This document shows positions 38 through 23,385 of a stretch of DNA of 24,792 bases, in pieces (positions within the stretch are counted from its first letter, which is position 1; each line of letters opens with the position of its first letter). Source of the DNA: a virus. The stretch spans positions 1-24,792 of the IMG/VR virus record IMGVR_UViG_3300037882_004745. The stretch is one strand, 5' to 3'. The notes beneath the pieces were generated by a model. The model was not told where the DNA came from. It saw only the letters and a program-made list of their open reading frames with translations, and did not search any database. The position numbers were made by a program, and so were the translations under genes.

Positions 38-76
38 GAAAAGAAAAAGGCGCCAAAGAAATTAATCTTGGCGCCT
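38..76 (-). terminator. Rho-independent terminator closing the left cassette
   Basis: A perfect 9-bp inverted repeat (AGGCGCCAA at 48-56, TTGGCGCCT at 68-76) has an 11-nt loop. Read leftward it is followed directly by a T-rich tract (TTTTTCTTTTCC). The GC-rich stem stands out in AT-rich DNA. It lies downstream of the three small paralogs and the decayed fourth copy, so it ends the leftward transcription unit that begins near 4490. Confidence 0.88.
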
Positions 77-163
77 CAATTTTAAGCAGATGATTTTTAT
101 TCAAATTCTTTTAACAAAAATCAAATTAATTCCCAAATGTCTGAACAAATAATTTCTTTCATA

Positions 164-478
164 TTAAATATCCAAATTATTCAAAAGATTTTGTTTTTCT
201 ATTAAATTATTTATTAAGTAAGGAATTGCATCACAAAATATTTTAATATCTACACTGCCAATTTTACCATTATAGTCATTCAGTATTCTTTATAAGAAAA
301 TAAAATATTTTTCATTATAAAATTTATATCATAGTTCCAACTGGTAATTCTCTTTAGGTATAGAAAATATTTTATTCCCAATAAATATATTTATTAAATA
401 TGATTCACATTTATTTTGTTTATATGTAGATTATTATCTCTTTTGTAAGATATAATTGCATATATTAAATTTCTGAGT
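164..478 (-). pseudogene. Decayed fourth copy of the small tandem paralog family
   Basis: No intact gene is present, but one leftward frame running to TAA at 164-166 reads as a member of the same family as the next two genes upstream. Across the wreck it gives IFIGNKIFSIPKENYQLEL, then RILNDYNGK, then AIPYLINNLIEK. The neighbour at 842-1183 has IFMIDETKLTIPK and LLRFLNDCDFN in the same order and spacing, and the neighbour at 489-845 has LRLLNDYDEN followed by LTYLIEKL. The frame is broken by several in-frame stops (a TAA pair near the start, a TGA and a TAA), and no usable start codon is visible. The resemblance runs through almost the whole length, so this is a dead duplicate and not chance similarity. 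The exact 5' limit is uncertain. Confidence 0.72.
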
Positions 479-488
479 GTATTATACC

Positions 489-845
489 TCATTTAAACGT
501 TTTCATACTCCTGTCTAATTTTTCAATTAAATATGTCAATGCTGAAATAAATGAATAAATAGATTTTAAATTTTTGTCATTTTCATCATAGTCATTCAAC
601 AATCGTAAAATTATTTCTTTTCTATCTTTATCTAAAAATGATTCAACTACATATAAATTAAATCCAGTATTACTAATTCCATGTGAAGATAAAGAAAATT
701 TATTGATCATAAATTTTTTACTTTTAGAATTAATAGAAACAAAATTATCATCCACAATAATTGCTTCCAAATAATTACCTTCTAATTTATGAAATAAACA
801 AGATTGTACTAATAAATATAAGGTTGGACAAATTTCTTGATTCAT
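489..845 (-). CDS. Small tandem paralog, unknown function (copy A)
   Basis: This 118-residue protein belongs to no family I recognise. It has no signal peptide or membrane segment and is rich in Lys, Asn, Ile and Leu. Its C-terminal half (ILRLLNDYDEN, then a helix ending in LIEKLDRSMKTFK) matches the same region of the next gene upstream (LLRFLNDCDFN, LIKILERKLKAFE), so the two are diverged tandem duplicates. Its ATG overlaps the upstream stop as ATGA, which points to translational coupling. It is the last intact gene of the leftward cassette before the decayed copy and the terminator. Repeated duplication with rapid divergence suggests selection for variation, but no activity can be assigned. 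Confidence 0.72.
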   Translation of the reverse strand: MNQEICPTLYLLVQSCLFHKLEGNYLEAIIVDDNFVSINSKSKKFMINKFSLSSHGISNTGFNLYVVESFLDKDRKEIILRLLNDYDENDKNLKSIYSFISALTYLIEKLDRSMKTFK

Positions 846-1183
846 TCAAATGCCTTTAATTTTCTTTCTAATATTTTTATCAATCCTGGTAAATAATCAT
901 AAAACTGATCAAATTTTCTTGAATCTTCATAAGGATTAAAATCACAATCATTTAAGAATCTCAAAAGTATATTCATATTTGATTCGTTAATTATACACAA
1001 GGAAGTATAATTAAAAGAAATTTTTGGAATTGTTAATTTGGTTTCGTCGATCATAAAAATATATAAATCGTTAATTAATTTAACAAATTTTATTTCACTT
1101 TTTGTTTTAAATTTTAAATAAATAAGATTTTGAATCAACGGTTCCGGATATTGATGTTCTTTTAAATTTTCACTTATATTCAT
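842..1183 (-). CDS. Small tandem paralog, unknown function (copy B)
   Basis: This 113-residue acidic/basic mixed protein has no recognisable domain. It shares an LxRxLND core and a C-terminal amphipathic helix ending (L)K(A/T)F(E/K) with copy A and with the pseudogene. A weaker match of the last 20 residues links it to the next gene upstream. Its start codon overlaps the stop of that gene by one base (TAATG), and its own stop overlaps copy A (ATGA). The three genes are therefore almost certainly co-translated. Length and order suggest a family of small partner, inhibitor or anti-host proteins, but this is a guess. Confidence 0.72.
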   Translation of the reverse strand: MNISENLKEHQYPEPLIQNLIYLKFKTKSEIKFVKLINDLYIFMIDETKLTIPKISFNYTSLCIINESNMNILLRFLNDCDFNPYEDSRKFDQFYDYLPGLIKILERKLKAFE

Positions 1184-1485
1184 TATTCAAATGTTTTTAA
1201 TTTTGAAATTTTTTCTTTTATCACCGAAATTAATAATTCTGGTTGATAACAAATATCAATTGAATTTATAACTGAAATCATTAATTTGCTAGTGTTTTTT
1301 ATTTCAAGATTATAATTTTTAATTAAATAATCTTTTGCAGATGTATTAAAACAAACAAATTCTCCAGTACAACCAGATTCAAATTTACCATCATTGCTAA
1401 TAAAAATAGCATATAATTTAACTTCATTTTTAATTTTATTATTTACCAAATCAAATAGTAATTTTCTATGGCTATTATAAATCAT
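1183..1485 (-). CDS. Small tandem paralog, unknown function (copy C, most diverged)
   Basis: This 100-residue protein is not recognised. The C-terminal end (LLISVIKEKISKLKTFE) resembles the ends of copies A and B (LIEKLDRSMKTFK, LIKILERKLKAFE). The predicted strand-rich middle is only weakly alike, so it is either a strongly diverged paralog or an unrelated protein with a similar tail. Its ATG overlaps the TGA of the methyltransferase-like gene (ATGA), which ties the small-protein set to that enzyme in one translationally coupled row. Confidence 0.68.
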   Translation of the reverse strand: MIYNSHRKLLFDLVNNKIKNEVKLYAIFISNDGKFESGCTGEFVCFNTSAKDYLIKNYNLEIKNTSKLMISVINSIDICYQPELLISVIKEKISKLKTFE

Positions 1486-2540
1486 TTTACATTTTTAAAT
1501 ACAAAAAATGGTTCAAATTTTTCTACTCCCGCAGTTTTTGTTAAATGACTTCTTACTGTCTTTAACTTTAAAATCTCCACCGGCTCCCCAAATTTTTTCT
1601 TCGCCATCGAAATCATTCGTTCATATTTTTCTGTTATATTTAATCCAAACGTTTTCCCAGGCTTCAACATCCATTTTACATTATCTAATGTTCCAGACCA
1701 ATATTTATCATAAAAATAATTTTCATCTTTATTATATGCTTGACTCGAATCTTCACTGTAATATTCTTGATCATAATACGGAGGAGAACTCCAATATAAA
1801 TCAACAGAATTTTCTTCGCCTCGATATTCCTCAGAACCACTTTGAATTAATTTCACATTTTTAAATTCAAAATATTCAACCATCTTTTCCAATTCAGGAA
1901 CCGTTAATGGATCAGTTCCAATATAACTTCTTCCACAACTCATCGCTCCCAATAACCGTCCCCCAAATCCACAAGAATAATCTCCAACCACATCTCCAAC
2001 TTGACTGTATTTTTCATATATAAATTTAGCTACGTCAGGTTTAAACATGCTTGTAGCATTAATCATTCTCATACTTCGCATTCCTTGAATAAACATTTTA
2101 AAGCTTAAATTAAAAGCTTCATTTACCCCAGGACGAATCACTCCATTTTTTTCGTCATCTTCCAACCAATCCAATCCCAATCTATTTTCAATGATTCTTT
2201 TTAGCTTTTTATCATCGTTAAATATTTCAATTAAATTTTGCTTTCCTCTTTCAGAGGTATTATAAAAACTATGGCAAAAATATCTGCAAATATTTGTCGC
2301 CAATGAACTGTTATTATTCACTACATCTAATTCAACATTAACTTTATAATTACACAATCTAGCATATTCTTTTTTTAAATCACCCTCTTTATCAGGATAA
2401 ACAAATCCCGATTCTCTCAGCTTTTCAAAAATAGGCTCAACCAATTCTAATCTTTCATTTTTATTTAAGCTTTGAATATAATGTTTATCAATTTTTTGAC
2501 CATTAATAACCAAAACTTCATCGTATTTTAATTTTGCCAT
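1482..2540 (-). CDS. SPPY-motif methyltransferase-like protein (probable DNA modification enzyme)
   Basis: This 352-residue protein has a C-terminal Rossmann methyltransferase core. A glycine-rich AdoMet loop (VGDYSCGFGGR, about 185-195) precedes an acidic residue after a strand (IGTD, D210) and the catalytic tetrapeptide SPPY (252-255). SPPY/NPPY is motif IV of amino-methylating DNA methylases, and SPPY is most common in N4-cytosine enzymes. About 160 N-terminal residues are helical and unassigned; they could bind target or partner. There is no obvious restriction partner. The gene starts inside the end of the acyltransferase gene (23-nt overlap) with AAAGGAG upstream. Together these suggest methylation or a larger base modification. 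A non-DNA substrate is possible. Confidence 0.72.
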   Translation of the reverse strand: MAKLKYDEVLVINGQKIDKHYIQSLNKNERLELVEPIFEKLRESGFVYPDKEGDLKKEYARLCNYKVNVELDVVNNNSSLATNICRYFCHSFYNTSERGKQNLIEIFNDDKKLKRIIENRLGLDWLEDDEKNGVIRPGVNEAFNLSFKMFIQGMRSMRMINATSMFKPDVAKFIYEKYSQVGDVVGDYSCGFGGRLLGAMSCGRSYIGTDPLTVPELEKMVEYFEFKNVKLIQSGSEEYRGEENSVDLYWSSPPYYDQEYYSEDSSQAYNKDENYFYDKYWSGTLDNVKWMLKPGKTFGLNITEKYERMISMAKKKFGEPVEILKLKTVRSHLTKTAGVEKFEPFFVFKNVK

Positions 2541-3288
2541 TGTAATGAATTTTCTCCTTTGAATTTGGAAATTTGCTTTTATAAAAAATTAAACCCTTTG
2601 TAGCTTGTCCTAAATTAATTTCAAATTCTCCAACTTTATTAAAAACTCGTTTGTAAATTTGCATATCTGTAAATTCAGAAATCCCAATGTAATTCTTAGC
2701 CAATGCTTTGCCAATAACATAAGAACAATTTCCATTAACTATTGGACTCAATGTTCCAAATGAAATCAATCGATCCACATCATAAACAAATATATTTTCA
2801 CAATTAACATGAAAATTATTTCGATAAAAAAACAAATTCTTTCCAGAAAAATCTCGAAAATATTTATCAGCCAATGTATCTCGCCAAGTAGAGATTAATT
2901 TTTCTACATCGCCAATATTTCTAAAATTACTTTCAATAGTTAAATTTAATTTCTCACACCGATTTATATTGTTTCTAATTTTCTTAAATTTAACTCCAGG
3001 CAATTTTAAAAAATCCGAATCAACCAAATATCCAATTGAAATATTTTTATCTTTATCAACATCAAAATTACTTTTCAAGATATTAAAATTATCTTCAGAC
3101 ACATAATGAATTGATAATTCAGGAAATTTTCTTAATTCAACAAGATCATTTTCAAGAATTGTATTTAAAAATGTTACATGTTGCTTTTTTCCAACCGTCC
3201 AGAAAAAACAATTATTGATCACTTGAATATTTTTAGATTGCGGTCCCAATAAACATTTAGCGCTATATTCATTAATAAAATTATTCAT
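2518..3288 (-). CDS. DUF2156/GNAT-fold acyltransferase-like protein
   Basis: This 256-residue protein resembles the DUF2156 (phosphatidylglycerol lysyltransferase-type, double-GNAT) acyltransferases. It has the basic KFKKIRNNINR segment (100-110), like the KRN(H/x)INRF motif of that family. Its C-terminal block EINLGQATKGLIFYKSKF (223-240) is like their glycine-plus-KxxxxP ending. A middle segment (about 165-195) reads as the GNAT strand pair. Relatives move acyl or aminoacyl groups, often from aminoacyl-tRNA, and the unrelated-in-sequence GNAT protein Mom of phage Mu modifies adenine in DNA. The overlap with the methyltransferase-like gene suggests the two act on one substrate; that is inference. 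The start follows CGGAG at good spacing. Confidence 0.6.
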   Translation of the reverse strand: MNNFINEYSAKCLLGPQSKNIQVINNCFFWTVGKKQHVTFLNTILENDLVELRKFPELSIHYVSEDNFNILKSNFDVDKDKNISIGYLVDSDFLKLPGVKFKKIRNNINRCEKLNLTIESNFRNIGDVEKLISTWRDTLADKYFRDFSGKNLFFYRNNFHVNCENIFVYDVDRLISFGTLSPIVNGNCSYVIGKALAKNYIGISEFTDMQIYKRVFNKVGEFEINLGQATKGLIFYKSKFPNSKEKIHYNGKIKIR

Positions 3289-3348
3289 ATTATGGCTCCG
3301 AAATCAATGTAAAATTTTAAAAATTAATGTCAAGATGTGGAGAAATTT

Positions 3349-4452
3349 TTAAAATGATTTTAAACCAAGACCATCAAAAATTCTTTTACATTCATCATAA
3401 TTACAATATTTTCTTTCGAAAGATATATTACGTTCATCAAAAGCTTCCTTAATTAAGTGATGTTTCACATCATACAAACCAGAAAGTGCTTTAATAGACA
3501 TTCCAAAATCATTATGCAAACATAAAATGTCATTAAAATTATGCGCAATTAGTTCTTTATGAGTCATTGGACGCGGAACATAGTTTTTAACATAATTAGG
3601 AAGAGAGTTATATTTTGCTTTGATCAATTGATATTTATTATATTTTCTTGTTAGATACATATTTGCATCTTTGTATAACCAATCAAGAAATTTAGTACAT
3701 CTTGCGAATGATTTTATTGCTATGATTGACATGTCATCAGTAGTAACGCAAGGCATTTCAGTTGTGTGAAAATCTATATTTAAAATTTCTTTAAAATAAT
3801 TAACCAGATGATTATTTAAATCAATACTATTTATTAAATTTACAGAACACGAACATTCTTTGGCTTTTGGAGATGTAATATAGATCCATCCATCACCATC
3901 AATCATACCTCTAACGAAATGTGAGTAAAGATTTAAATCTAAATTTGTGGGATTTTTAAGAATGGTAGATTTATTTTCGCACACTCCCCATTTATCCCTT
4001 AATGTAGAAACCATTTGTTTACTATGCAATGCAATTTTGCAATATTTTCTTTTCTCATCATCCTCATATTCTTTAACCATATCTTCTTCAGATATTAATT
4101 TATTAAAATGTTTTAAAATGTGAATATCTTTTGCCGCTAATCCTATTCGTAATGTATAGCCTCCAGTTGAATATCCAACAGACCCGTCAGCGTATATAAA
4201 TCCGAGCATATATGCTTTTTCTTCTGTATCAATTTCGTCAAACCAATGTTCATCAAAGAAGTGAATTCTGCCATATACACGATTCGTATTAATTTCCTCA
4301 GCAGCAAATTTTGGATATAAATATTTTCTATGTATTCCTACAATTTTTCCTATTTCAGTTAAACTTTTACCTTCATTAAATAATTTTATTATTTCTGTCC
4401 ATTTATACTTTACCATTTGCTTTTGAGTTAATTTTAATTCTTTATCTTGCAT
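3349..4452 (-). CDS. LAGLIDADG homing endonuclease, free-standing
   Basis: This 367-residue protein carries two LAGLIDADG helices: AYMLGFIYADG (about 80-90) and FVRGMIDGDG (about 179-188). Each ends in the acidic residue that binds the catalytic metal, so this is a single-chain, two-domain enzyme of normal size. The N-terminal 50 residues (IGKIVGIHRKYLYPKF) look like a helix-turn-helix DNA-binding unit, and a second one may lie near the C-terminus (IKALSGLYDVKHHLIKEAF). It is not inside an intron or intein that I can see. It is the first gene after the promoter at 4492-4519, and it lies just past the capsid gene's terminator, a typical insertion site for a mobile endonuclease gene. Confidence 0.92.
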   Translation of the reverse strand: MQDKELKLTQKQMVKYKWTEIIKLFNEGKSLTEIGKIVGIHRKYLYPKFAAEEINTNRVYGRIHFFDEHWFDEIDTEEKAYMLGFIYADGSVGYSTGGYTLRIGLAAKDIHILKHFNKLISEEDMVKEYEDDEKRKYCKIALHSKQMVSTLRDKWGVCENKSTILKNPTNLDLNLYSHFVRGMIDGDGWIYITSPKAKECSCSVNLINSIDLNNHLVNYFKEILNIDFHTTEMPCVTTDDMSIIAIKSFARCTKFLDWLYKDANMYLTRKYNKYQLIKAKYNSLPNYVKNYVPRPMTHKELIAHNFNDILCLHNDFGMSIKALSGLYDVKHHLIKEAFDERNISFERKYCNYDECKRIFDGLGLKSF

Positions 4453-4491
4453 TTTATTCTCTTAAAAATTAAATTTTTAGTCAGTATGGAA

Positions 4492-4519
4492 AGTATAATT
4501 CTTTTTTTAATTGTGTCAA
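4492..4519 (-). promoter_or_regulatory. Sigma70-type promoter of the left cassette
   Basis: Read leftward, TTGACA (4519-4514) is followed after 16 nt by TATACT (4497-4492). This is a consensus -35 box and a five-of-six -10 box. Transcription would start near 4485, about 30 nt before the endonuclease ATG at 4452, which has AAGAGA as its ribosome site. It lies between the capsid terminator and the first cassette gene, exactly where an independent promoter would be needed. It is the best bacterial-type promoter in the window. Confidence 0.68.
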
Positions 4520-4534
4520 TTGTTTAAACAATTG
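4517..4534. promoter_or_regulatory. Perfect 18-bp palindrome overlapping the -35 box (candidate operator)
   Basis: CAATTGTTTAAACAATTG is a perfect inverted repeat with no spacer. Its last three bases (read leftward) are the TTG of the promoter's TTGACA. A dimeric repressor bound here would block RNA polymerase. The repressor is not encoded next to it as far as I can tell; a host or phage factor, or the endonuclease's N-terminal helix-turn-helix, could bind. Confidence 0.5.
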
Positions 4535-4571: not shown

Positions 4572-4602
4572 GTAAGAAAGAAACCGCCCCATAGAGGCGG
4601 TT
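4572..4602 (-). terminator. Rho-independent terminator of the major capsid gene
   Basis: The inverted repeat AACCGCC (4582-4588) and GGCGGTT (4596-4602) has a 7-nt loop and is followed leftward by TCTTTCTT. It begins about 37 nt after the capsid stop codon and separates the capsid transcript from the left cassette. Confidence 0.88.
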
Positions 4603-4638: not shown

Positions 4639-5652
4639 TTATTCGATAACAAGTGATTTTTTACCAGCTGAAACACCACGAGGATTGATAATTCCAATTC
4701 CAATACATTCTGAAACAACCCAACCAAGAGATAATCTTTTTGGTTCGTCCGCTGGGAGTACCTCTATGTCTTGGCGTATGGGCATTACTCCAACGAATTC
4801 TGGGTCAGCCGTAGCATAGAGGGAGCCTGGCGGAACGATTTTACTTACCATTATATCCGCCGCAAAAATCTGACCATATAAACCAGTTTGAAGTACTTCT
4901 CTCATGGTTACTGGATCAAAATCTCCACCACCAACTCCTTGACCACCACCAGCACCCCAACGTAGAATATCTGAAAACTCATTGATATTCATAAAGTATT
5001 TGGAAGTAACAAGGTCCCAATGATCAATTTGAACTTTTAGTTCAATAAGATCTCTTTTGAGTAAACCAGCATCTGAAATATCACTTACGATATTTTCTAC
5101 TGAAGCAGCCGCATCAAGAGCAGCAAAACCGTTTGCATCTTCTTGCGCCATTAATTCTTGACGAGCTTTTTGAACAGCACGATCAATGACGTTAAAACGA
5201 CGACGACGAACTTCATTAATACGAACAGTTGGATTTGAATAAAGTTCAAATTCAGGAACAACAACACGTTCACCGAAAATTCTTGATTCTGGACCTGAAC
5301 CGTTTGAACTTACAACAACAGCTTGAACGTCAATATCTCGTTCATAGGAAGGAATCGCACCTGGACCGAGAGGATCAACAACAAGAGCACGACGAAAAAT
5401 CCCGTGGTAATCCAAATTTCTGCGAATTGGATTAGCCATTGATTGAGCAAGAGCAGTTTTACCATCTTGCGTATAAATAGCGCGTGAAACAAGATCATCG
5501 GCTTCTGCATCTGAAAAACCTGATTGACCAGTCATTCCTAAATTGGCTGGTTGGTTTTCTTCTAAAAGAGATGCGTACTTAACTAAATTTTGAAGCATAT
5601 CTCTCATGCTGCTTGCATTCATTTGTCCTTGACTATTAAACATTTGATTCAT
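4639..5652 (-). CDS. Major capsid protein (HK97-fold type)
   Basis: This 337-residue protein has the profile of phage coat proteins. A flexible Gln/Asn-rich N-terminus is followed by FSDAEADDLVSRAIYTQDGK, an Arg-rich region RINEVRRRRFNVIDRAVQ (a spine-helix-like segment with regular charge), a glycine-rich loop near 235-243, and a C-terminal domain ending in GWVVSECIGIGIINPRG, typical of HK97-type axial/peripheral domains in many large environmental phages. It has clearly richer GC and better codon choice than its neighbours, as expected for the most abundant virion protein. AAAGGA lies 8-9 nt before the ATG, and a strong terminator follows. It stands alone as a transcription unit between two mobile nuclease genes. 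Identity is by overall pattern, not by a database match. Confidence 0.85.
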   Translation of the reverse strand: MNQMFNSQGQMNASSMRDMLQNLVKYASLLEENQPANLGMTGQSGFSDAEADDLVSRAIYTQDGKTALAQSMANPIRRNLDYHGIFRRALVVDPLGPGAIPSYERDIDVQAVVVSSNGSGPESRIFGERVVVPEFELYSNPTVRINEVRRRRFNVIDRAVQKARQELMAQEDANGFAALDAAASVENIVSDISDAGLLKRDLIELKVQIDHWDLVTSKYFMNINEFSDILRWGAGGGQGVGGGDFDPVTMREVLQTGLYGQIFAADIMVSKIVPPGSLYATADPEFVGVMPIRQDIEVLPADEPKRLSLGWVVSECIGIGIINPRGVSAGKKSLVIE

Positions 5653-5822
5653 TTATATTTTCCTTTTGAATTAATTTCCAGTTTCCCAGAAACAGTGAAT
5701 ATTCTACTTAATATTTTATTATTCTTATTTTATTAACAAAAATAATAAAATTTAGTGGAAAAATGTAAAAATCTAGTTTTTAAGTCTAAAAATAAAGTTA
5801 TATATGTGATTGCGAGAAAAAA

Positions 5823-7646
5823 ATGATAAATAGAAAATTAGATTTAATTGGTAAAAGATTTGGAAAACTTACTGGCATGAGATTAGATGAAAATGCTCTT
5901 GAATTAAAAATCATATGCAAATGCGATTGTGGAAATGAAAAAAGTGTAAAGCCAAGATATTTAATAAATGATTTAACAAAATCATGTGGATGTTTTTATG
6001 ATAAAGATTTATCAGGGCAAGTTTTTGGAGAATTAAAAGTTATTAAAAAAATTGATAATAAAAAAAGATTTTTTTGGTTAGTGCGCTGTAGTTGTGGAAT
6101 TGAAAAAGAAGTTTCGCAAAATTCTTTAATTTCTGGCAATACAAAATCTTGCGGATGTAAAAAAATTAGAAAATGTCAATTAGGAGATAAATTTGGCAAG
6201 TTAACAGTAATTAGTGATTTAATTATTAAAGAAGATAAAACGCATTATTATAAAGTTAAATGTGATTGTGGAAAAGAAAAAGAAGTTGAGAAAAGATGTT
6301 TGACTACAGGAAACACAACTTCTTGTGGTTGTGGAAGAAAAGGATCAAGAGAAGATAAAATAAAAATTGTCAAACCTAAAAAAGAAAAAATAGAATTAGA
6401 GTCTTTGGAAGGAAAAATATTTACAAAATTAAATGTGTTAAATAAAATTAATAATGAAGAAAATTATTTATGCAAATGTGAATGTGGAAATACAATAATT
6501 TTATCAAGACATTCGTTGATTAGTAAAAGAAGAAAAAGTTGCGGATGTTTAAGACCAACAGGTGATAGTATTGTTGGTAAACAATTTAATCAATTATTAG
6601 TTTTGAGTATTGAAAAATCAGGAAATCCATTATGTAAGTGTGATTGTGGTGTTATCAAAGAAATTGATAGATCTTATTTAAGACGCGGGGCTAAATCATG
6701 TGGTCATATTGGAAAGTCTAAAAAATTAAAAGAATTTCAAATTGGAGAAAAATTCAATCGTTGGACTATTATTGAAATAATTAATGATCCAATTGATGGA
6801 AAATTTTATAGATTTAAATGTGAGTGTGGTGAAGAAACAATTGAAAAAATTTATAGAATTTTAAATGAAAGTTCAAAATCCTGTGGATGCTATCAGCGAG
6901 ATAATAGAAGAATTGATGGAAAATTATTTCCTTATCAAAAACCATTAAACGATCATGAGAGTTTTATTAGAAGTAGATGGTTGATCTATGTTAGAATAGA
7001 TCAAGAAAAAAATCTTTATGACGAACAAAAAATGATTCCATTTACTGAATTTTTAAAATTATCCAAAGAAAATTGTACTTATTGCGGGACCGAGCCACAA
7101 AGTAATACTGAAGATTCTGAAAATATTTTTATTTTTAATGGATTAGACAGAGTTGATAACTCTCTTGGGCATTATCATGACAATGTTGTACCATGTTGTT
7201 TTACTTGCAATCGCGCAAAATTAGATAGAAATGTTGATGAATTCATTAATTGGATTAAATTATTAAAATGTAAAGATTTTTCTCCAATTGATATTAAAAA
7301 AATTTCTTTTAAACCAAGAAAAAGTATTTTAGAAGGTATTATATCTCGTAGATATTCCGATACTAATCTTGAATTTGAAGAATTTCATTATTTAACTCAA
7401 CAACCTTGTTTTTATTGTGGGCGAATTGGAATGAATTGTAGAAATATAAATAAAAAAGAAAAATTTAACTATAATGGTTTAGATCGAATTGATTCTTCTC
7501 GTGGTCATGATCGTGATAATGTTGTCAGTTGTTGCAAAGATTGTAATTATGCAAAAAGTAATTCATCATTAAAAGAATTTAATTCTTGGATCGAAAGAAT
7601 TCAAAATTTTCAAAAACAAAAAAGCACCACATTAATGGTGCTTTAA
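5823..7646 (+). CDS. HNH endonuclease with six CxCG/SCGC repeats and two HNH domains
   Basis: This 607-residue protein is the only rightward gene. Six repeats of 43-50 residues lie at about 10-57, 65-112, 121-170, 197-242, 252-294 and 308-356. Each follows G-x-x-F-x-x-L-x-V, CxCxCG, then SCGC (SCGH in the fifth). Single units of this zinc-binding-looking motif occur beside AP2 or HNH domains in phage homing endonucleases. Two HNH nuclease domains follow: CTYC, GLDRVD, DNVVPCC, CN (418-463) and CFYC, GLDRID, DNVVSCC, CN (529-575). It is a near-relative of the protein at 8433-10319 in layout and in the second HNH. Its last codons overlap the terminator of the convergent neighbour. Its ribosome site is weak. 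Confidence 0.88.
   Translation: MINRKLDLIGKRFGKLTGMRLDENALELKIICKCDCGNEKSVKPRYLINDLTKSCGCFYDKDLSGQVFGELKVIKKIDNKKRFFWLVRCSCGIEKEVSQNSLISGNTKSCGCKKIRKCQLGDKFGKLTVISDLIIKEDKTHYYKVKCDCGKEKEVEKRCLTTGNTTSCGCGRKGSREDKIKIVKPKKEKIELESLEGKIFTKLNVLNKINNEENYLCKCECGNTIILSRHSLISKRRKSCGCLRPTGDSIVGKQFNQLLVLSIEKSGNPLCKCDCGVIKEIDRSYLRRGAKSCGHIGKSKKLKEFQIGEKFNRWTIIEIINDPIDGKFYRFKCECGEETIEKIYRILNESSKSCGCYQRDNRRIDGKLFPYQKPLNDHESFIRSRWLIYVRIDQEKNLYDEQKMIPFTEFLKLSKENCTYCGTEPQSNTEDSENIFIFNGLDRVDNSLGHYHDNVVPCCFTCNRAKLDRNVDEFINWIKLLKCKDFSPIDIKKISFKPRKSILEGIISRRYSDTNLEFEEFHYLTQQPCFYCGRIGMNCRNINKKEKFNYNGLDRIDSSRGHDRDNVVSCCKDCNYAKSNSSLKEFNSWIERIQNFQKQKSTTLMVL
7610..7644 (-). terminator. Terminator of the decoration-like gene, embedded in the end of the rightward nuclease gene
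   Basis: A perfect 9-bp inverted repeat, AAAGCACCA (7621-7629) and TGGTGCTTT (7636-7644), has a 6-nt loop. Leftward it is followed by TTTTTTGTTTTTG. It serves the leftward gene ending at 7678. Read rightward there is no T run, so it does not end the nuclease transcript, although it encodes the nuclease's last residues. Confidence 0.85.
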
Positions 7647-7677
7647 ATTCACAATGAATGTTTATATAGCTAAATTA

Positions 7678-8358
7678 TTAGCTAACTGGTGGATTCCAGT
7701 AAAATACTGCCCATGAGAATTGACGAGCAGCAACTCCAAAACTCGACGGACTATTCAAAGTGCTAACTAATCTATTAGGAGTTGTAACAAGACTTCCGTT
7801 CGTAGAGAATTCTACGAATCTACCTACAGCAACGTTTTCAAAGGCACTTCCAGATGTAGGTGTAAGTAAGCCAGCAGCAGTAGCAAATAATGCAGCACCA
7901 GTATCTAGAGTAGGATGAGTAGGTTGAAGACCGGTAGTTGCATTTTGATCAACTGCATCAAGAGTTACTGCATATAATCCTGGAGTTGACCATAATGTTA
8001 TTTTTCCACTTCCAGTAGCGCTTGATGGACCCAAGGCTGTGCCTGGAACTGATTGTGTACCAGAAGTTCCGCCAACAATAGAGCCAAACAACGTACCATA
8101 TCCGGTAATACCATCGTCAGAAAGAAACAACGGACGACTGCCTGAAGTAAGAGTTTTAGTAACTACGGTTCTTTTGGCAGTACCTGAGGCATTAGTATAA
8201 CCATCAAAGGCGTCAGCGGCAGCAAGATCAGCAGTAGCCAGAGATAATGAACGTAGTTTCACTACTTCGCCTCCGCGAATAGTGGAGAGATCCGCGTCAA
8301 GGCAATCGTATTGACCAATGGGAAGACTTGTACCAGTTTGAAGAATTTTTAGAGCCAT
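7678..8358 (-). CDS. Probable head decoration or capsid-associated structural protein
   Basis: This 226-residue Gly/Ser/Thr/Ala-rich protein has predicted beta structure, no membrane segment and no catalytic motif. It resembles the protein at 17247-17939 in layout. Both open with (L)KI(L/E)xxGxSLP, have a GxxxxL(R) segment near residue 30, and share a KITLW / RMTVW strand followed by an (A/N)LF...(G)(L/F)LT block. Like the capsid gene it is relatively GC-rich and has a strong ribosome site (AAGGA, 6-7 nt before ATG) and its own terminator, all signs of high late expression. Decoration protein is the most likely role; a fibre or tail component is possible. Confidence 0.55.
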   Translation of the reverse strand: MALKILQTGTSLPIGQYDCLDADLSTIRGGEVVKLRSLSLATADLAAADAFDGYTNASGTAKRTVVTKTLTSGSRPLFLSDDGITGYGTLFGSIVGGTSGTQSVPGTALGPSSATGSGKITLWSTPGLYAVTLDAVDQNATTGLQPTHPTLDTGAALFATAAGLLTPTSGSAFENVAVGRFVEFSTNGSLVTTPNRLVSTLNSPSSFGVAARQFSWAVFYWNPPVS

Positions 8359-8432: not shown

Positions 8433-10319
8433 TTAAAGTAATCTTTCATATTGATTTTTAATGGATTGATATTCCTGAATTCTTTTAATCCAATTATTGA
8501 ATTCTTCTAGGGTGTAATCTAATTTTGCATAATTACACCATTTGCAGCAAGGGACGACGTTATCTTTATTATGGTTAGCTTTTGTACCATCATCATTTAA
8601 AGATTTTATTCTATCTAAGCCATTATATCTAAAACCTTTTCTATTATTGACTTTTGATTCCCCGCAATAAAAACAAGGCTGTTGTATTAAATAGTAAAAT
8701 TCTTCCTTAGTTAAATTAGAATCACTATAAGTATTATCTCTAATTGAGTTAATACCTTCGCTCGCTGGAGGAAATTTATTAGATTTTATTTCTATTTTTG
8801 TATTTATGTTAATTTTTAATTTAGGAATCCAATTTAAAAAATCTTTCATTGATCTATAAGTTTTTGAAATATTACATTGAAAACAAGCTGATATACAGTT
8901 TTTCACGTGATGATTTTCGACACTTGTAATTCGCTCAATAGTATTATGAACAAATCCTCTTCTATTTAAATTAGGTTTTTCATTACAATAAAAACAATTT
9001 TGTTTAACTATATTTAAATAATCTTCTAGTAAAAGATCGAATTTTGCATAAGTGAATTTATTATTTTCATAATTAAATTTATCTCTTGCAATTATTTCTC
9101 TCCAAGCCCTTCGAGCTATTTCATCTTTTTCTGTATGATTTACCATTCTATCTGTTGTGAAATTTTCATGAACCAAATCATATTCCGAATTCATACATTC
9201 GCAATGCTTTCCCATATTATGAGATAATTCGTTGTAAGTAAAATTGCTTTTTCTCCCACAATCACAAATAAAATAAAAAATATTATTTTCTTCTTTAAGA
9301 AATTTTAAATGATTAATAATTAATTTTATATTTTTGGATGTTCTTATCCTTAAACATCCACAACTTTTCTTACCTTCATTTTTAATTTTATTAGAATCTA
9401 AAATTCTGATATTTCCGCAATCACAGTTACAAAGATAATTATTGCTATTAACTTTTTTACCAACCAATATTCTATTTATTTTTTGCCCAGTTAATAACTC
9501 TATTTTAGATCGACATAAGCCGCATGCTTGTGAATTTTCAGAATTTAAATTTCCTGTTGTTACACTAGTTTTATTTCCACATTCACAAATACATAGCCAC
9601 ATTCTATTTTGATCTATTGGAGGTTCTTGACCAATTACTTTTAATTTACCAAAAATTTTACCAATTAAATTTTCTCTAATTGAATTTCTGTAACCACATT
9701 CTCCACAAGATTTAGTTTCTCCTTTTAATACAGAATGCTTATATACTTCTTTTAAATTTCCGCAAGCACATTGAGCGTTTAATTTAATATTTCCGCCAGA
9801 TTCAGGAATATGTGAAATGGATAAAATTTTTAATATACCATAATTTTGATCTATCATATCTTCATTTTTAACATAATTTTTTATAACATAAAGTGATTTT
9901 ATATTTTCTTCATCAACTATAATTTGATCAGATTTACAATTTTTACATGAGAGAACTTCTTTCCACATAACAGAATTTTTATCAATCTCAAAATTTTCTC
10001 CACAATCACACTGTACTATAAATTTTAAATTTTGGGTTGAACTTGGTAAACATTTTAATACAGTTAATTTTCCAAATTTCTTACCTGGAATTTTTGAAAT
10101 TCTTTCATCATTTCTTTCTTTTTGAGCACAAAGATCGCAACATAAAATATGATTGTGTAGTAATTTGCTCTTTGTGGCATTTTTAATTTCTCCACAATCA
10201 CATTTTGTTTCAAATATAAATCTACCATCATCATTTTTATTAACTAATTTTATTACCGTTAATTTTCCAAATTTTTTACCAATCAATTCTTCGTTTAATA
10301 CTTTAAATTTCCCGGACAT
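8433..10319 (-). CDS. HNH endonuclease with six CxCG repeats and two HNH domains
   Basis: This 628-residue protein has the same architecture as the rightward nuclease. Six repeats lie at about 14-64, 79-128, 158-208, 220-269, 278-322 and 330-375, each with G-x-x-x-x-x-L-x-V, a C-x-CG pair and a second cysteine pair. Repeats 1-4 close with CxxC (CDLC, CKNC, CGEC, CGLC), while 5-6 close with CGC or CEC. HNH domain 1 (442-500) has lost the usual GLDRI(D) and DNVV core (it reads TIERITS and KNCISACFQCN), so it may be inactive. HNH domain 2 (549-612) is intact, with CFYC, GLDRI, DNVVPCC and CN. It follows the five-gene head operon's terminator and has its own candidate promoter. It is AT-rich and poorly adapted compared with the head genes. 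Confidence 0.87.
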   Translation of the reverse strand: MSGKFKVLNEELIGKKFGKLTVIKLVNKNDDGRFIFETKCDCGEIKNATKSKLLHNHILCCDLCAQKERNDERISKIPGKKFGKLTVLKCLPSSTQNLKFIVQCDCGENFEIDKNSVMWKEVLSCKNCKSDQIIVDEENIKSLYVIKNYVKNEDMIDQNYGILKILSISHIPESGGNIKLNAQCACGNLKEVYKHSVLKGETKSCGECGYRNSIRENLIGKIFGKLKVIGQEPPIDQNRMWLCICECGNKTSVTTGNLNSENSQACGLCRSKIELLTGQKINRILVGKKVNSNNYLCNCDCGNIRILDSNKIKNEGKKSCGCLRIRTSKNIKLIINHLKFLKEENNIFYFICDCGRKSNFTYNELSHNMGKHCECMNSEYDLVHENFTTDRMVNHTEKDEIARRAWREIIARDKFNYENNKFTYAKFDLLLEDYLNIVKQNCFYCNEKPNLNRRGFVHNTIERITSVENHHVKNCISACFQCNISKTYRSMKDFLNWIPKLKININTKIEIKSNKFPPASEGINSIRDNTYSDSNLTKEEFYYLIQQPCFYCGESKVNNRKGFRYNGLDRIKSLNDDGTKANHNKDNVVPCCKWCNYAKLDYTLEEFNNWIKRIQEYQSIKNQYERLL

Positions 10320-16351: not shown

Positions 16352-17224
16352 TTATACTTTTGAATTTTCTCTTCTTACTCTTGCAATTACTTTTTCTGTT
16401 ATTTTAAAGTCTTTGGCAAGTCTATAAGTTGATCTTGGGTCATTTACAATTAAATTAATTTGCTCTTCTGTAAAAATTTTCTTATTAGGAGGTGCTTTGC
16501 CAGTCATTCCAACATTTGGCATTTTATTTATATGTCCATTTCTTTTCATTCTCCTTCCATGCAATTTACAATATTTTTTACTTTCGTAAGTTGTATAATC
16601 ATTTCTACCAGTGACTTCACATCCCGGAGCATGACATTTTAATTCTCCATTTTCTATTTGCTTATTAATTTTTGCATCTAAAGTTTTTTGAATACCAATT
16701 TTTCTTTTTTCAATAATTTCAGCGGATTGTTTTCTGCCCTTTAAAGTATTTGATATTTTTATTTTAGCATCATCTGTACAATATGGTTTTGGATTTAATT
16801 TTCTAGTCGCTTTTTGTTTTTCAATAGATTCTTCACTATGTTTAATTCCTAATGCAGGATGACCTTTTTCATTTATTTGATTAAGAGTAGCTTGTCTTAA
16901 TTTTTCTTTTGTTCTTTCTGAATGACCACCGTAATCTCCACCAACAGTTAAATTATAACCAAAATTTTTATCTAAACTTTTATATTGTATAATTAAAATA
17001 CTTTCAGCATGATTTGTATCTTCACGATTTTTAGACATAGCTATTACTTCAAAAGTAAAATTTTGCGCACCATATTTTTTCATTGCATAATGAATATATT
17101 GTTTTGTTTTATCTGGATTTTCAGCGTATCTTAAATGATTTTTCCAGCGAGTGTCTGGACTTTCTGTTTGTCCAATATAAATTTTGTTATTAATTAAATT
17201 AGTAATTTTATATAAATAGAACAT
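16352..17224 (-). CDS. GIY-YIG homing endonuclease, free-standing
   Basis: This 290-residue protein has the GIY-YIG nuclease domain at its N-terminus: LYKITN (4-9) and IYIGQT (15-20), the catalytic arginine R27, and the metal-binding glutamate E74 in HAES. NUMOD3-type repeats (KHSEESIEKQK, 128-138; KGRKQSAEIIEKRK, 162-175) follow, then a C-x4-C...C-x2-H cluster (C197, C202, C219, H222), probably a zinc finger. A C-terminal helix-turn-helix (RLAKDFKITEKVIARVRR, 268-285) follows. This is the classic catalytic-domain/linker/DNA-binding layout of I-TevI-like enzymes. It sits between the decoration-like gene and the five-gene operon, 22 nt from its upstream neighbour, with an AAGGA ribosome site. 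Confidence 0.93.
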   Translation of the reverse strand: MFYLYKITNLINNKIYIGQTESPDTRWKNHLRYAENPDKTKQYIHYAMKKYGAQNFTFEVIAMSKNREDTNHAESILIIQYKSLDKNFGYNLTVGGDYGGHSERTKEKLRQATLNQINEKGHPALGIKHSEESIEKQKATRKLNPKPYCTDDAKIKISNTLKGRKQSAEIIEKRKIGIQKTLDAKINKQIENGELKCHAPGCEVTGRNDYTTYESKKYCKLHGRRMKRNGHINKMPNVGMTGKAPPNKKIFTEEQINLIVNDPRSTYRLAKDFKITEKVIARVRRENSKV

Positions 17225-22100: not shown

Positions 22101-22714
22101 CAAAAGTCTGCTTCAGTTCTGGCTACCTGAGCGCAATCTGAACAAATCGCTTTTCCGACACCGGTACCCATACTTACGCAATTTGAGTAACCGGAAGAAA
22201 CTTTTCTTGCCAATTCAGGATAATTTTTTTTATCAAGAGCACAAAAAGCAACAACTCGTTTTAAAGCTCTATCATAATAAGTATCAACAATAAATCCTCT
22301 CACATGATCAACAGAACTAGATTTATGGTCAATACAAAGAGGTTTACCAATCCAATTTTTATGAACTTTTATAAGTTCAGATTCTGGAAAAATGTCACCG
22401 TTAAGATTTTTATAAGGTTTAATCATTGGATCATTGGTTTTCCAACGCCAAGTATTATTTGAAGTATCCCATCCAACCTTAACTGGCTCGCCTCGAAGAT
22501 TAAGTTTATATGACCCATCTTCGTTTAATGCTGAAGCTTCGGCACTATGCATCATAACAGCAGAAAAATATAAAAAATCATCAGCCTTTGGAGCAATTCT
22601 TTTTAACTCAGATGCTGTTTTATTAAAATTATCTAAAATAGCTTGATTAATTTCAACCGAATCCGGTGATTCGATTTTTAGTATATTTAAATTTTCACCA
22701 ATTTTCAAAAACAT
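19187..22714 (-). CDS. Prohead protease fused to a very long scaffold-like protein
   Basis: This is a 1175-residue protein. Residues 1-245 match the serine prohead protease family. CIDHKS gives the likely catalytic His130, NCVSMG the likely nucleophile Ser181, and CSDC...FCHH (191-207) the zinc-type cluster that follows this serine in many phage proteases. The domain ends with ELNPIELSIVVNGADPQAK. After it come an acidic linker, a duplicated 80-residue unit (399-478 and 489-572, each with KHMVGQ and DG(M/L)HP), a possible folded segment (about 586-645), long charged helices (about 680-900) and MKFSPMLDQAHPK (956-968). The C-terminal 200 residues are helical. Protease and scaffold are often adjacent or nested in phages; such a long one-piece fusion is unusual. 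A ribosome site (AAGGG) precedes ATG. Confidence 0.78.
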   Translation of the reverse strand: MFLKIGENLNILKIESPDSVEINQAILDNFNKTASELKRIAPKADDFLYFSAVMMHSAEASALNEDGSYKLNLRGEPVKVGWDTSNNTWRWKTNDPMIKPYKNLNGDIFPESELIKVHKNWIGKPLCIDHKSSSVDHVRGFIVDTYYDRALKRVVAFCALDKKNYPELARKVSSGYSNCVSMGTGVGKAICSDCAQVARTEADFCHHMRSKSCYGEINTELNPIELSIVVNGADPQAKIKHVMAMAQNLNNYIDQKEKELKKLAGNKRYIASFSMEDTEREGLASTNLSVESTDLNSFKSDIEDALNRLSELNEDLSNENENSDTNHLISNQSSGRLSMDEESLPSNDSSLAPPTDKFATINDLKILTHQMAEKLNHINKSLEHLVASKEETMPGKGNDLNKNAYYQGTEEPTPGQVKYPKDPLNEKARAEDKHMVGQMDTGPVDGMHPGVDSVPMSEFDRKKMLARAQADERSMRRTAIVEIAKQNLENKKAYFQNGDGKDNPGTPTPGKPKYPVDKLNEQAREQDKHMVGQKPFPGVGAVDGLHPSPASADTADELKRKEMLSRASLRARFVKAANEDGSQNLGKSAWEVFLGDKLLVAASVNDLSGNKADFLYDSIATKDFGTKLIDKVKVFGADKVRSMIKSAQEMPAAPSADMSAMPASEPSSPEPMDDQGGNGDMSESAKDMAQQIENLASDLKAALDTVDGDVPEMGDVAPVTASLENSSFDLKALNQMKKEINSELSSKLKEVIAHLQDHKDELKMLDSAFKSSLHPDSKNSLKNILASALVEMKETVVEANELYGTFVKYARGSQAIMKRAQVESQLKALSDEDHGHPMNEETQSDLMNLINSTNEDLANVEDMLNEDDDNYSSDAMTGADALLQELEMPSEDLAAADDDKTNEDENDADGLVTVKNTQQAAEVAKQNPNAHVAVASLDSKAGRAALRAKLAAGDGMKFSPMLDQAHPKGGVTPADMGKTEGDLSKVETLDEVSKKMNDLAKAPVKVRKEAEAIHNLISEGKLREDELDSLVAQGLDKDAVAYYKKYYGQTDGGSEFASELVKEHSKAYMENDLNVYKVKLSRAYELAYDMVSRGLVYNDPKAITAQVEEIMQCNDEGFESLKRVVAKQVPNLQTQAGRMPQVGAREFTEVPSLAPTDMKSQFDAHFSRNRPKRMF
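20999..21520 (-). repeat. Two-copy internal duplication (about 80 residues each) in the protease/scaffold gene
   Basis: The segments at 21281-21520 and 20999-21250 encode similar units: (N/K)KAY(Y/F)Q, then PTPG(Q/K)xKYPxDxLNE(K/Q)AR, then (E/Q)DKHMVGQ, then DG(M/L)HP, then a basic KKMLARA or KEMLSRA helix. The copies differ at many positions, so the duplication is old but conserved in its core. Confidence 0.78.
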
Positions 22715-23385
22715 ATTAACCCTTTTTTTAGAAATTCTTTAAACTCAACATCTGTTTTCGTACCTTTTCTTAAATTACAAGTTTTACATGATGGAACTAA
22801 ATTTTCAATTTTATTTTCTCCACCCAGAGATAAAGGTACTTTATGATCCAAATGTAAATTTATTCCTGATTTAACCTGTGTAGAACAATAATAGCAACAA
22901 GAATTATGCTCAATAATTAGATCATTAATTTCTTTTTGTGTTATTTTACTTTTAGATAATTTTAATCTTCTAGCCCTATTTCTAAGAGAAATTCTTTCTT
23001 TGTTATTTTGTCTATAAATTTTATTTCTATTTGAATGATACTCTTTATTTTTAAAATAACTTTCACTTTGACTCAATCTAACTTTTTCTTTATTGAATAA
23101 ATATTTTTCATGATTCTTTTTCTTTTTATCTTCCAAATCTTTTTTTGACATAGAAAATAATTTATTTTTATGATTATTTCTTCTCAATTCATTAATATTA
23201 TTTTTATTTTTGTTATAATATATTTTTTTAGATTCCTTTGATTTTGAAGGATAAATTTTTTTGTTATTTTCTCTATATTCTTTAGCACATAATTTACATT
23301 GTGAAGATTTTTTATCTTTTGAATTTTTATTAGCACAAAATAAAGATAAATCTTTTTTATTTTTGCAAGTTGAACAAAATTTCAT
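22705..23385 (-). CDS. HNH endonuclease, free-standing
   Basis: This 226-residue, very Lys/Asn-rich protein has an N-terminal CxxC...CxxC finger (CSTC 4-7; CKLC 30-33). A long basic helical middle follows, then a complete HNH domain: CYYC (164-167), LHLDHKVPLSLGG (177-189) with the catalytic His181, N195 in ENLVPSC, and CKTC (200-203). It is a typical mobile HNH nuclease. It was inserted between a 46-residue head protein (its ATG directly follows that stop, TAAATG) and the protease gene (10-nt overlap with that ATG). It is much more AT-rich than the protease gene. Confidence 0.9.
   Translation of the reverse strand: MKFCSTCKNKKDLSLFCANKNSKDKKSSQCKLCAKEYRENNKKIYPSKSKESKKIYYNKNKNNINELRRNNHKNKLFSMSKKDLEDKKKKNHEKYLFNKEKVRLSQSESYFKNKEYHSNRNKIYRQNNKERISLRNRARRLKLSKSKITQKEINDLIIEHNSCCYYCSTQVKSGINLHLDHKVPLSLGGENKIENLVPSCKTCNLRKGTKTDVEFKEFLKKGLICF

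Follow-up and report, generated by a model that had tools for sequence, protein, structure and literature searches.

Nuclease–modification pairs and capsid-side homing genes are both known kinds of arrangement. The usual view is that homing endonucleases leave their own genome uncut since the element interrupts or alters the target sequence, and those of the LAGLIDADG type have long, rare recognition sites. A homing endonuclease of phage PhiPA3 has been experimentally shown to confer an advantage in phage–phage competition (PMC11620839), and Iyer and colleagues read the Mom–nuclease fusions of jumbo phages as restriction–modification systems (PMC7824862). Here, we describe a cassette in the virus record IMGVR_UViG_3300037882_004745, a 24.8-kb fragment of a phage genome (hereafter, the window). 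The cassette encodes a LAGLIDADG endonuclease, a DUF2156-type transferase, and an SPPY methyltransferase, all on the minus strand. It is probably (roughly 0.6) a homing-endonuclease element with its own DNA-modification module, lodged in phage G-like jumbo phages next to their capsid gene. The principal genes are as follows.

4639–5652, minus strand: major capsid gene (phage G gp27-like, phrog_2522), adjoined by the element
3349–4452, minus strand: LAGLIDADG homing endonuclease, 367 aa, with an N-terminal helix–turn–helix (HTH) (phrog_4645, motifs)
2518–3288, minus strand: DUF2156/LPG_synthase_C-type (double GNAT) transferase, 256 aa (PF09924, orthologs, fold)
1482–2540, minus strand: SPPY amino-methyltransferase of the PF01555/phrog_12517 family, 352 aa, the module common to the nuclease fusions (profiles, model)

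In the proposed mechanism, the element occupies the interval that separates the major capsid gene from the structural gene after it. When an element-free phage co-infects the cell, the LAGLIDADG enzyme would cut the capsid region of that phage, after which repair would copy the cassette into the cut genome. The SPPY methyltransferase would protect the replicating genome of the carrier phage from cutting by marking the target or a broader range of sites there, such that nuclease and methylase would act like a restriction–modification pair that homes to the capsid locus. In the branch to which the window belongs, the nuclease and the methylase are separate genes and the transferase is coupled to the methylase; there, the transferase would probably extend the mark, or supplement it, by attaching an aminoacyl or acyl group.

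Nuclease–methylase fusions and the capsid locus

The window endonuclease matches the phrog_4645 endonuclease profile with an E-value of 1.1e-44 and harbors both acidic catalytic LAGLIDADG motifs, LGFIYADGS and RGMIDGDGW; its matches to LAGLIDADG_3 and HTH_23 fall under the Pfam cut-off. The profile match and the two motifs together are those expected of a free-standing LAGLIDADG homing endonuclease. The methylase carries motif I and the SPPY motif IV in an S-adenosylmethionine (AdoMet) fold. Its score against PF01555 (N6_N4_Mtase) is 25.1, slightly under the cut-off of 26.7, which two relatives exceed (41.9 for L170, 57% identical to it, and 27.6 for L012). The model, with a predicted local distance difference test (pLDDT) score of 93.2, comprises a Rossmann methyltransferase and an N-terminal helical part; by sequence, the protein matches the DNA cytosine-N4 methylase PDB 8s9n with an E-value of 5.5e-7. 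The SPPY-type methylase of the earlier note, a reading of the same DNA from its letters, can accordingly be placed among the N4/N6-type DNA methylases. NCBIfam and PADLOC searches gave weak matches, the PADLOC ones being type II methylases.

In most close relatives of this methylase, a LAGLIDADG homing endonuclease makes up the N-terminal part of the same polypeptide, and the fusion gene immediately follows the capsid gene. Five such relatives (L010–L014) emerged when viral contigs were scanned with the methylase, each forming the C-terminal half of a 648–714-aa open reading frame (ORF) that starts 60–176 nt after the capsid gene. The N-terminal halves belong to the window endonuclease family (26–30% identity by BLAST; phrog_4645 E-values of 3e-51 for L012 and 1e-52 for L010). 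A second methylase scan and a capsid-protein scan added L111, L121/L122, L165–L168, and L172–L175, so that single ORFs of 643–737 aa uniting the two families are found in L010–L014, L111, L121, L165, L168, and L172–L175. Behind another capsid family, the methylase is joined to other LAGLIDADG types (L050, L063, L064, L065, L177, and L199), and beside Gp23-type capsid genes its fusion partner is a Vsr-like or zinc-finger part (LR756508, that is, L007; L020; and the Lak phages L008 and L009). The nucleases joined to this one methylase family comprise three LAGLIDADG kinds, Vsr/restriction endonuclease (REase)-like enzymes, and zinc-finger proteins. A fusion of yet another type, L240, exceeds the Pfam cut-offs for LAGLIDADG_2 and N6_N4_Mtase alike. 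In the methylase tree, paired and fused methylases interleave in one group (100/100), separate from the stand-alone group; therefore, fusion or splitting has probably occurred more than once. An intein reading of the fusions was rejected, as the LAGLIDADG part is N-terminal with its own HTH and no methylase part lies ahead of it.

Capsid proximity was counted for the loci found with the methylase together with the matches in phage records, using contig fusions with upstream sequence and capsid genes of three types; the capsid queries cover the capsid types encountered. A capsid gene lies within 3.6 kb of all testable fusions (15/15 in contigs and 3/3 in phage records) and of 0/98 stand-alone methylases, of which 37 have at least 3 kb on either side. 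The window capsid protein has its closest match in Bacillus phage G (49%), and the window ends short of the gene following the element; the insertion site is read from relatives. At the empty site (L090, L092, and L141), a conserved 233-aa gene lies 124–158 nt after the capsid gene, while in L010, L014, L121, L168, L171, and L172 the element occupies the position between these two genes. As is the case for homing elements, the element is inserted at a fixed position, and relatives exist in which this position is unoccupied. Its distribution is patchy: eight records of 193–481 kb that share the capsid gene have zero methylases of this family, and G001, G002, G003, and G069 have exactly one copy each, at the capsid gene.

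The linkage of nuclease and methylase is also that of type II restriction–modification, and the two in one chain reproduce the type IIG layout, a resemblance that extends to the published reading of the Mom–nuclease fusions (PMC7824862). The cassette could accordingly be a type IIG-like weapon against host DNA or rival phages, with the LAGLIDADG enzyme cutting unmodified DNA at many sites, yet the fixed locus between two conserved genes, the empty sites, and the patchy presence are what homing predicts. The sites of LAGLIDADG enzymes are, moreover, known to be long and rare, and we consider such a weapon improbable.

Several further arrangements were observed among the relatives. In L013, the nuclease–methylase fusion is immediately followed by another, divergent member of the methylase family (7089–7754), and the L240 and L241 fusions have HTH-like segments in front. 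In Brevibacterium and Leucobacter (L206, L210, L209, and L213), an adjoining protein of ~270–360 aa, with a C-terminal HTH in the Brevibacterium copies, is coupled to the methylase; one Leucobacter contig holds two divergent copies. The capsid genes of L010 (2583–4785), L011 (2682–4756), and L173 (2602–4787) are interrupted by a LAGLIDADG-containing insert, probably a group I intron, and these phages also have the capsid-side nuclease–methylase fusion.

The transferase–methylase pair and the proposed mark

The window transferase matches PF09924 (LPG_synthase_C) with an E-value of 5.5e-5 and 22.8 bits, under the cut-off of 27.5, which its orthologs exceed with 33.0 and 42.4 bits. A model built from five sequences (pLDDT 75.7) has Foldseek matches to the DUF2156 protein 2hqy, MprF/LPG synthases, A-PGS, Sbb17, and FemX (E-values of 3e-10 to 5e-8 for 2hqy, MprF, A-PGS, and FemX), in agreement with the DUF2156/GNAT-type transferase proposed earlier. 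Neither this protein nor its orthologs match the Mom family (PF25680). Enzymes of the double-GNAT class (MprF and FemX type) use aminoacyl-tRNA, and, by its predicted fold, the window transferase belongs to this aminoacyl-tRNA-dependent class and not to the Mom family. Single-sequence searches of phages, viral contigs, and GTDB genomes with the transferase returned nothing, its relatives being reached via the capsid locus only. None of 26 related virus records contains PF09924; therefore, this transferase is no general partner of the methylase.

The earlier note had proposed a search for co-occurrence of the acyltransferase and the methylase in other phages. The pair is conserved in four other loci (L164, L170, L171, and L176), where the transferase gene immediately precedes the methylase gene in the vicinity of the same capsid gene, and the objection that the pairing is peculiar to one genome falls away. 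Identities to the window proteins are 39–47% for the transferase and 47–61% for the methylase, and the two genes are separated by a 62-nt gap in L170 and a 9-nt gap in L171 or overlap by 14 nt in L164 and 23 nt in L176. The methylase is unfused in the window and in these four loci; the nucleases nearby are of the LAGLIDADG (window), HNH (L164 and L170), and Vsr/homing-repeat (L170 and L176) types.

Overlaps of the methylase gene with genes of other GNAT subfamilies favor a joint function. They are found in L015 (GNAT–methylase, 8 nt, Acetyltransf above cut-off), L242 (GNAT–methylase at 5208–6955, minus strand, 10 nt, PF00583 above cut-off), and L205 (ParB–methylase–GNAT, 4 nt, GNAT match below cut-off); apart from L242, GNAT neighbors of stand-alone methylases are mostly kilobases distant. 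These overlaps are the best support for a joint pathway and are independent of the homing account. The methylase family has two linkages, one to homing-type nucleases and one to GNAT-superfamily transferases, and the most economical joint explanation would be a homing element that puts a mark on its own DNA. The L242 pair lies in an apparent replication region, in a record with three methylase copies, and the overlapping ParB-like, methylase, and GNAT genes of L205 (3432–5750 of a Bacteriovoracaceae contig) may form a nuclease-free DNA-modification operon.

Because these two loci have no homing endonuclease nearby, they also speak for genome-wide anti-restriction, in which the pair would hypermodify virion DNA against host nucleases and the homing endonucleases would be hitchhikers at a hot spot. 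The stand-alone methylases in replication modules, as well as the attraction of homing genes to capsid regions (PMC10448857), are in keeping with this alternative. It leaves the in-frame fusion of the methylase to nucleases of several superfamilies unexplained, and the fusions without a transferase and the patchiness of the element among close relatives also argue against it; on balance, we regard anti-restriction as unlikely.

Several observations count against the homing interpretation. Homing endonucleases cluster near capsid genes in general (PMC10448857), and the fusions and loci share descent, making the proximity counts non-independent. The fusions L240 (2487–4772) and L241 (3361–5691) are not beside a capsid gene but elsewhere in G070 and G012; therefore, the association with the capsid gene is stated here as frequent and not as invariable. 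L171 has the pair, yet only a nuclease fragment alongside. Stand-alone methylase homologs occupy replication modules without nucleases, so that the family may originally have served in general DNA modification. Lastly, in the Foldseek comparison the methylase is most similar to tRNA methyltransferases, with template modeling (TM) scores of ~0.4–0.6; DNA and RNA substrates are indistinguishable by this comparison, which is so unspecific that it leaves room for an RNA substrate. Along with the use of aminoacyl-tRNA by the transferase class, these matches would suit a methylase and an aminoacyl-type transferase acting on tRNA or on the capsid mRNA. The DNA methylase profiles above cut-off, the 8s9n match, and the fusion of the methylase to DNA nucleases make RNA modification very improbable.

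A homing element carrying its own modification module could be self-immunizing, in that modification of the target, and not disruption of its sequence, would protect the carrier. In the window's branch, the methylase and the DUF2156 transferase might then together produce the mark, an aminoacylated or acylated base; the aminoacyl group is suggested by the fold class of the transferase. This extension is tentative and somewhat less probable than its negation. If it were true, the nuclease could be directed against a sequence that is essential and does not change, the capsid gene being an example, homing elements would be linked to restriction–modification systems, and the element would be a phage weapon against co-infecting relatives that is hard to escape by target mutation. 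The element appears to have been assembled repeatedly from different nucleases beside the capsid genes of unrelated large phages, and the transferase–methylase pair is a concrete candidate for a new DNA modification.

Signals, small genes, and neighboring nucleases

The remaining features of the cassette are listed below.

4582–4602, minus strand: capsid gene terminator (confirmed)
4517–4534: perfect 18-bp palindrome CAATTGTTTAAACAATTG, a candidate operator, overlapping the −35 box
4519–4492, minus strand: sigma-70-type promoter, TTGACA-16-TATACT (11/12 matches)
1183–1485, minus strand: small ORF, 100 aa, ATGA-coupled to the methylase
842–1183, minus strand: small ORF, 113 aa, paralog of 489–845 (z 7.2)
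489–845, minus strand: small ORF, 118 aa, paralog of 842–1183 (z 7.2)
77–488, minus strand: degenerate remnant of another small paralog (frame 1, z 3.9, contains stops)
38–76, minus strand: intrinsic terminator of the cassette (stem −18.7 kcal/mol, z −4.8)

The gene order, the junctions (a 23-nt overlap, ATGA, TAATG, and ATGA), the terminators of the cassette and the capsid gene, and the near-consensus promoter are all as described earlier. The promoter, its strength judged from the consensus alone, is the top-scoring site in 7 kb (chance expectation ~0.7 per 7 kb on both strands), and the palindrome exceeds all others in the window in length (chance expectation ~0.27 per 7 kb). Each is just mildly unlikely by chance, and both are credible because of where they lie, downstream of the capsid terminator and ahead of the first gene. 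The palindrome could equally serve as a nuclease or methylase site. The G+C content is 25% in the cassette and 40% in the capsid gene; further window genes are likewise AT-rich.

Having its own promoter and terminator, the cassette has the signals of a moron, as the earlier note proposed. It is, however, led by a homing endonuclease, and the fusion of most close methylase relatives to such an enzyme at the capsid locus argues for a homing element and not a generic moron. The claim of small paralogs holds for the products of 489–845 and 842–1183 and extends to the one dead gene, as frame 1 of 77–488 resembles the 489–845 protein (0/300 shuffles as high); paralogy of 1183–1485 with the other two is not demonstrable (z 1.2 and −0.7), and no relatives of its product were found. 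The small proteins, which had been expected to accompany the pair elsewhere, have no BLAST homologs in the fetched loci and were dropped as conserved partners; an ATGA-overlapping ORF in L010 is unlike them (z 1.5 or lower).

Four more endonuclease-like genes are found in the window: two large repeat-rich proteins (5823–7646, plus strand, and 8433–10319, minus strand), one GIY-YIG and one HNH (16352–17224 and 22705–23385, both minus strand). The repeat-rich proteins have no Pfam match and resemble, as judged by eye, the HNH type of L164. With nuclease genes on either side of the capsid gene, the region constitutes a homing-gene island.

Comparison with known systems

No description of homing endonuclease–methylase fusions or of a DUF2156–methylase pair was found in the open-licence papers that were searched. 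The methylase is of the same family as the phage methylases of replication modules (PHROG 12517/PF01555), which have no nuclease or capsid gene nearby and form a clade apart from those of the element. The transferase shares its fold and Pfam family with MprF/LPG synthase and FemX but is a soluble 250-aa phage protein whose gene overlaps that of a DNA methylase.

Like free-standing homing endonucleases and homing endonuclease gene (HEG) islands (e.g., T4 Seg/Mob; PMC2988022 and PMC10448857), the element has an intergenic nuclease beside an essential structural gene and is absent in close relatives. In contrast to the T4 Seg/Mob-type enzymes, it carries a modification enzyme, in many cases fused to the nuclease; as judged by a text search, neither methylases nor methylation are mentioned in these two papers. 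A DNA-modifying enzyme is similarly joined to a nuclease in the Mom (GNAT)–REase fusions of jumbo phages (PMC7824862), which are proposed to protect self and attack others. In L020, a Mom-bearing nuclease (Pfam Mom above cut-off) lies directly upstream of the methylase fusion, and similar nucleases are found in L007, L009, and L015. The modification domain of the element is instead an SPPY methyltransferase, its nuclease is mostly of the LAGLIDADG type, and the window transferase is DUF2156-type. Type IIG and other fused restriction–modification enzymes also combine nuclease and methylase in one chain or operon, while the element is distinguished from them by a homing-type nuclease, a fixed phage locus with empty sites, and, in the window's branch, a coupled DUF2156 transferase.

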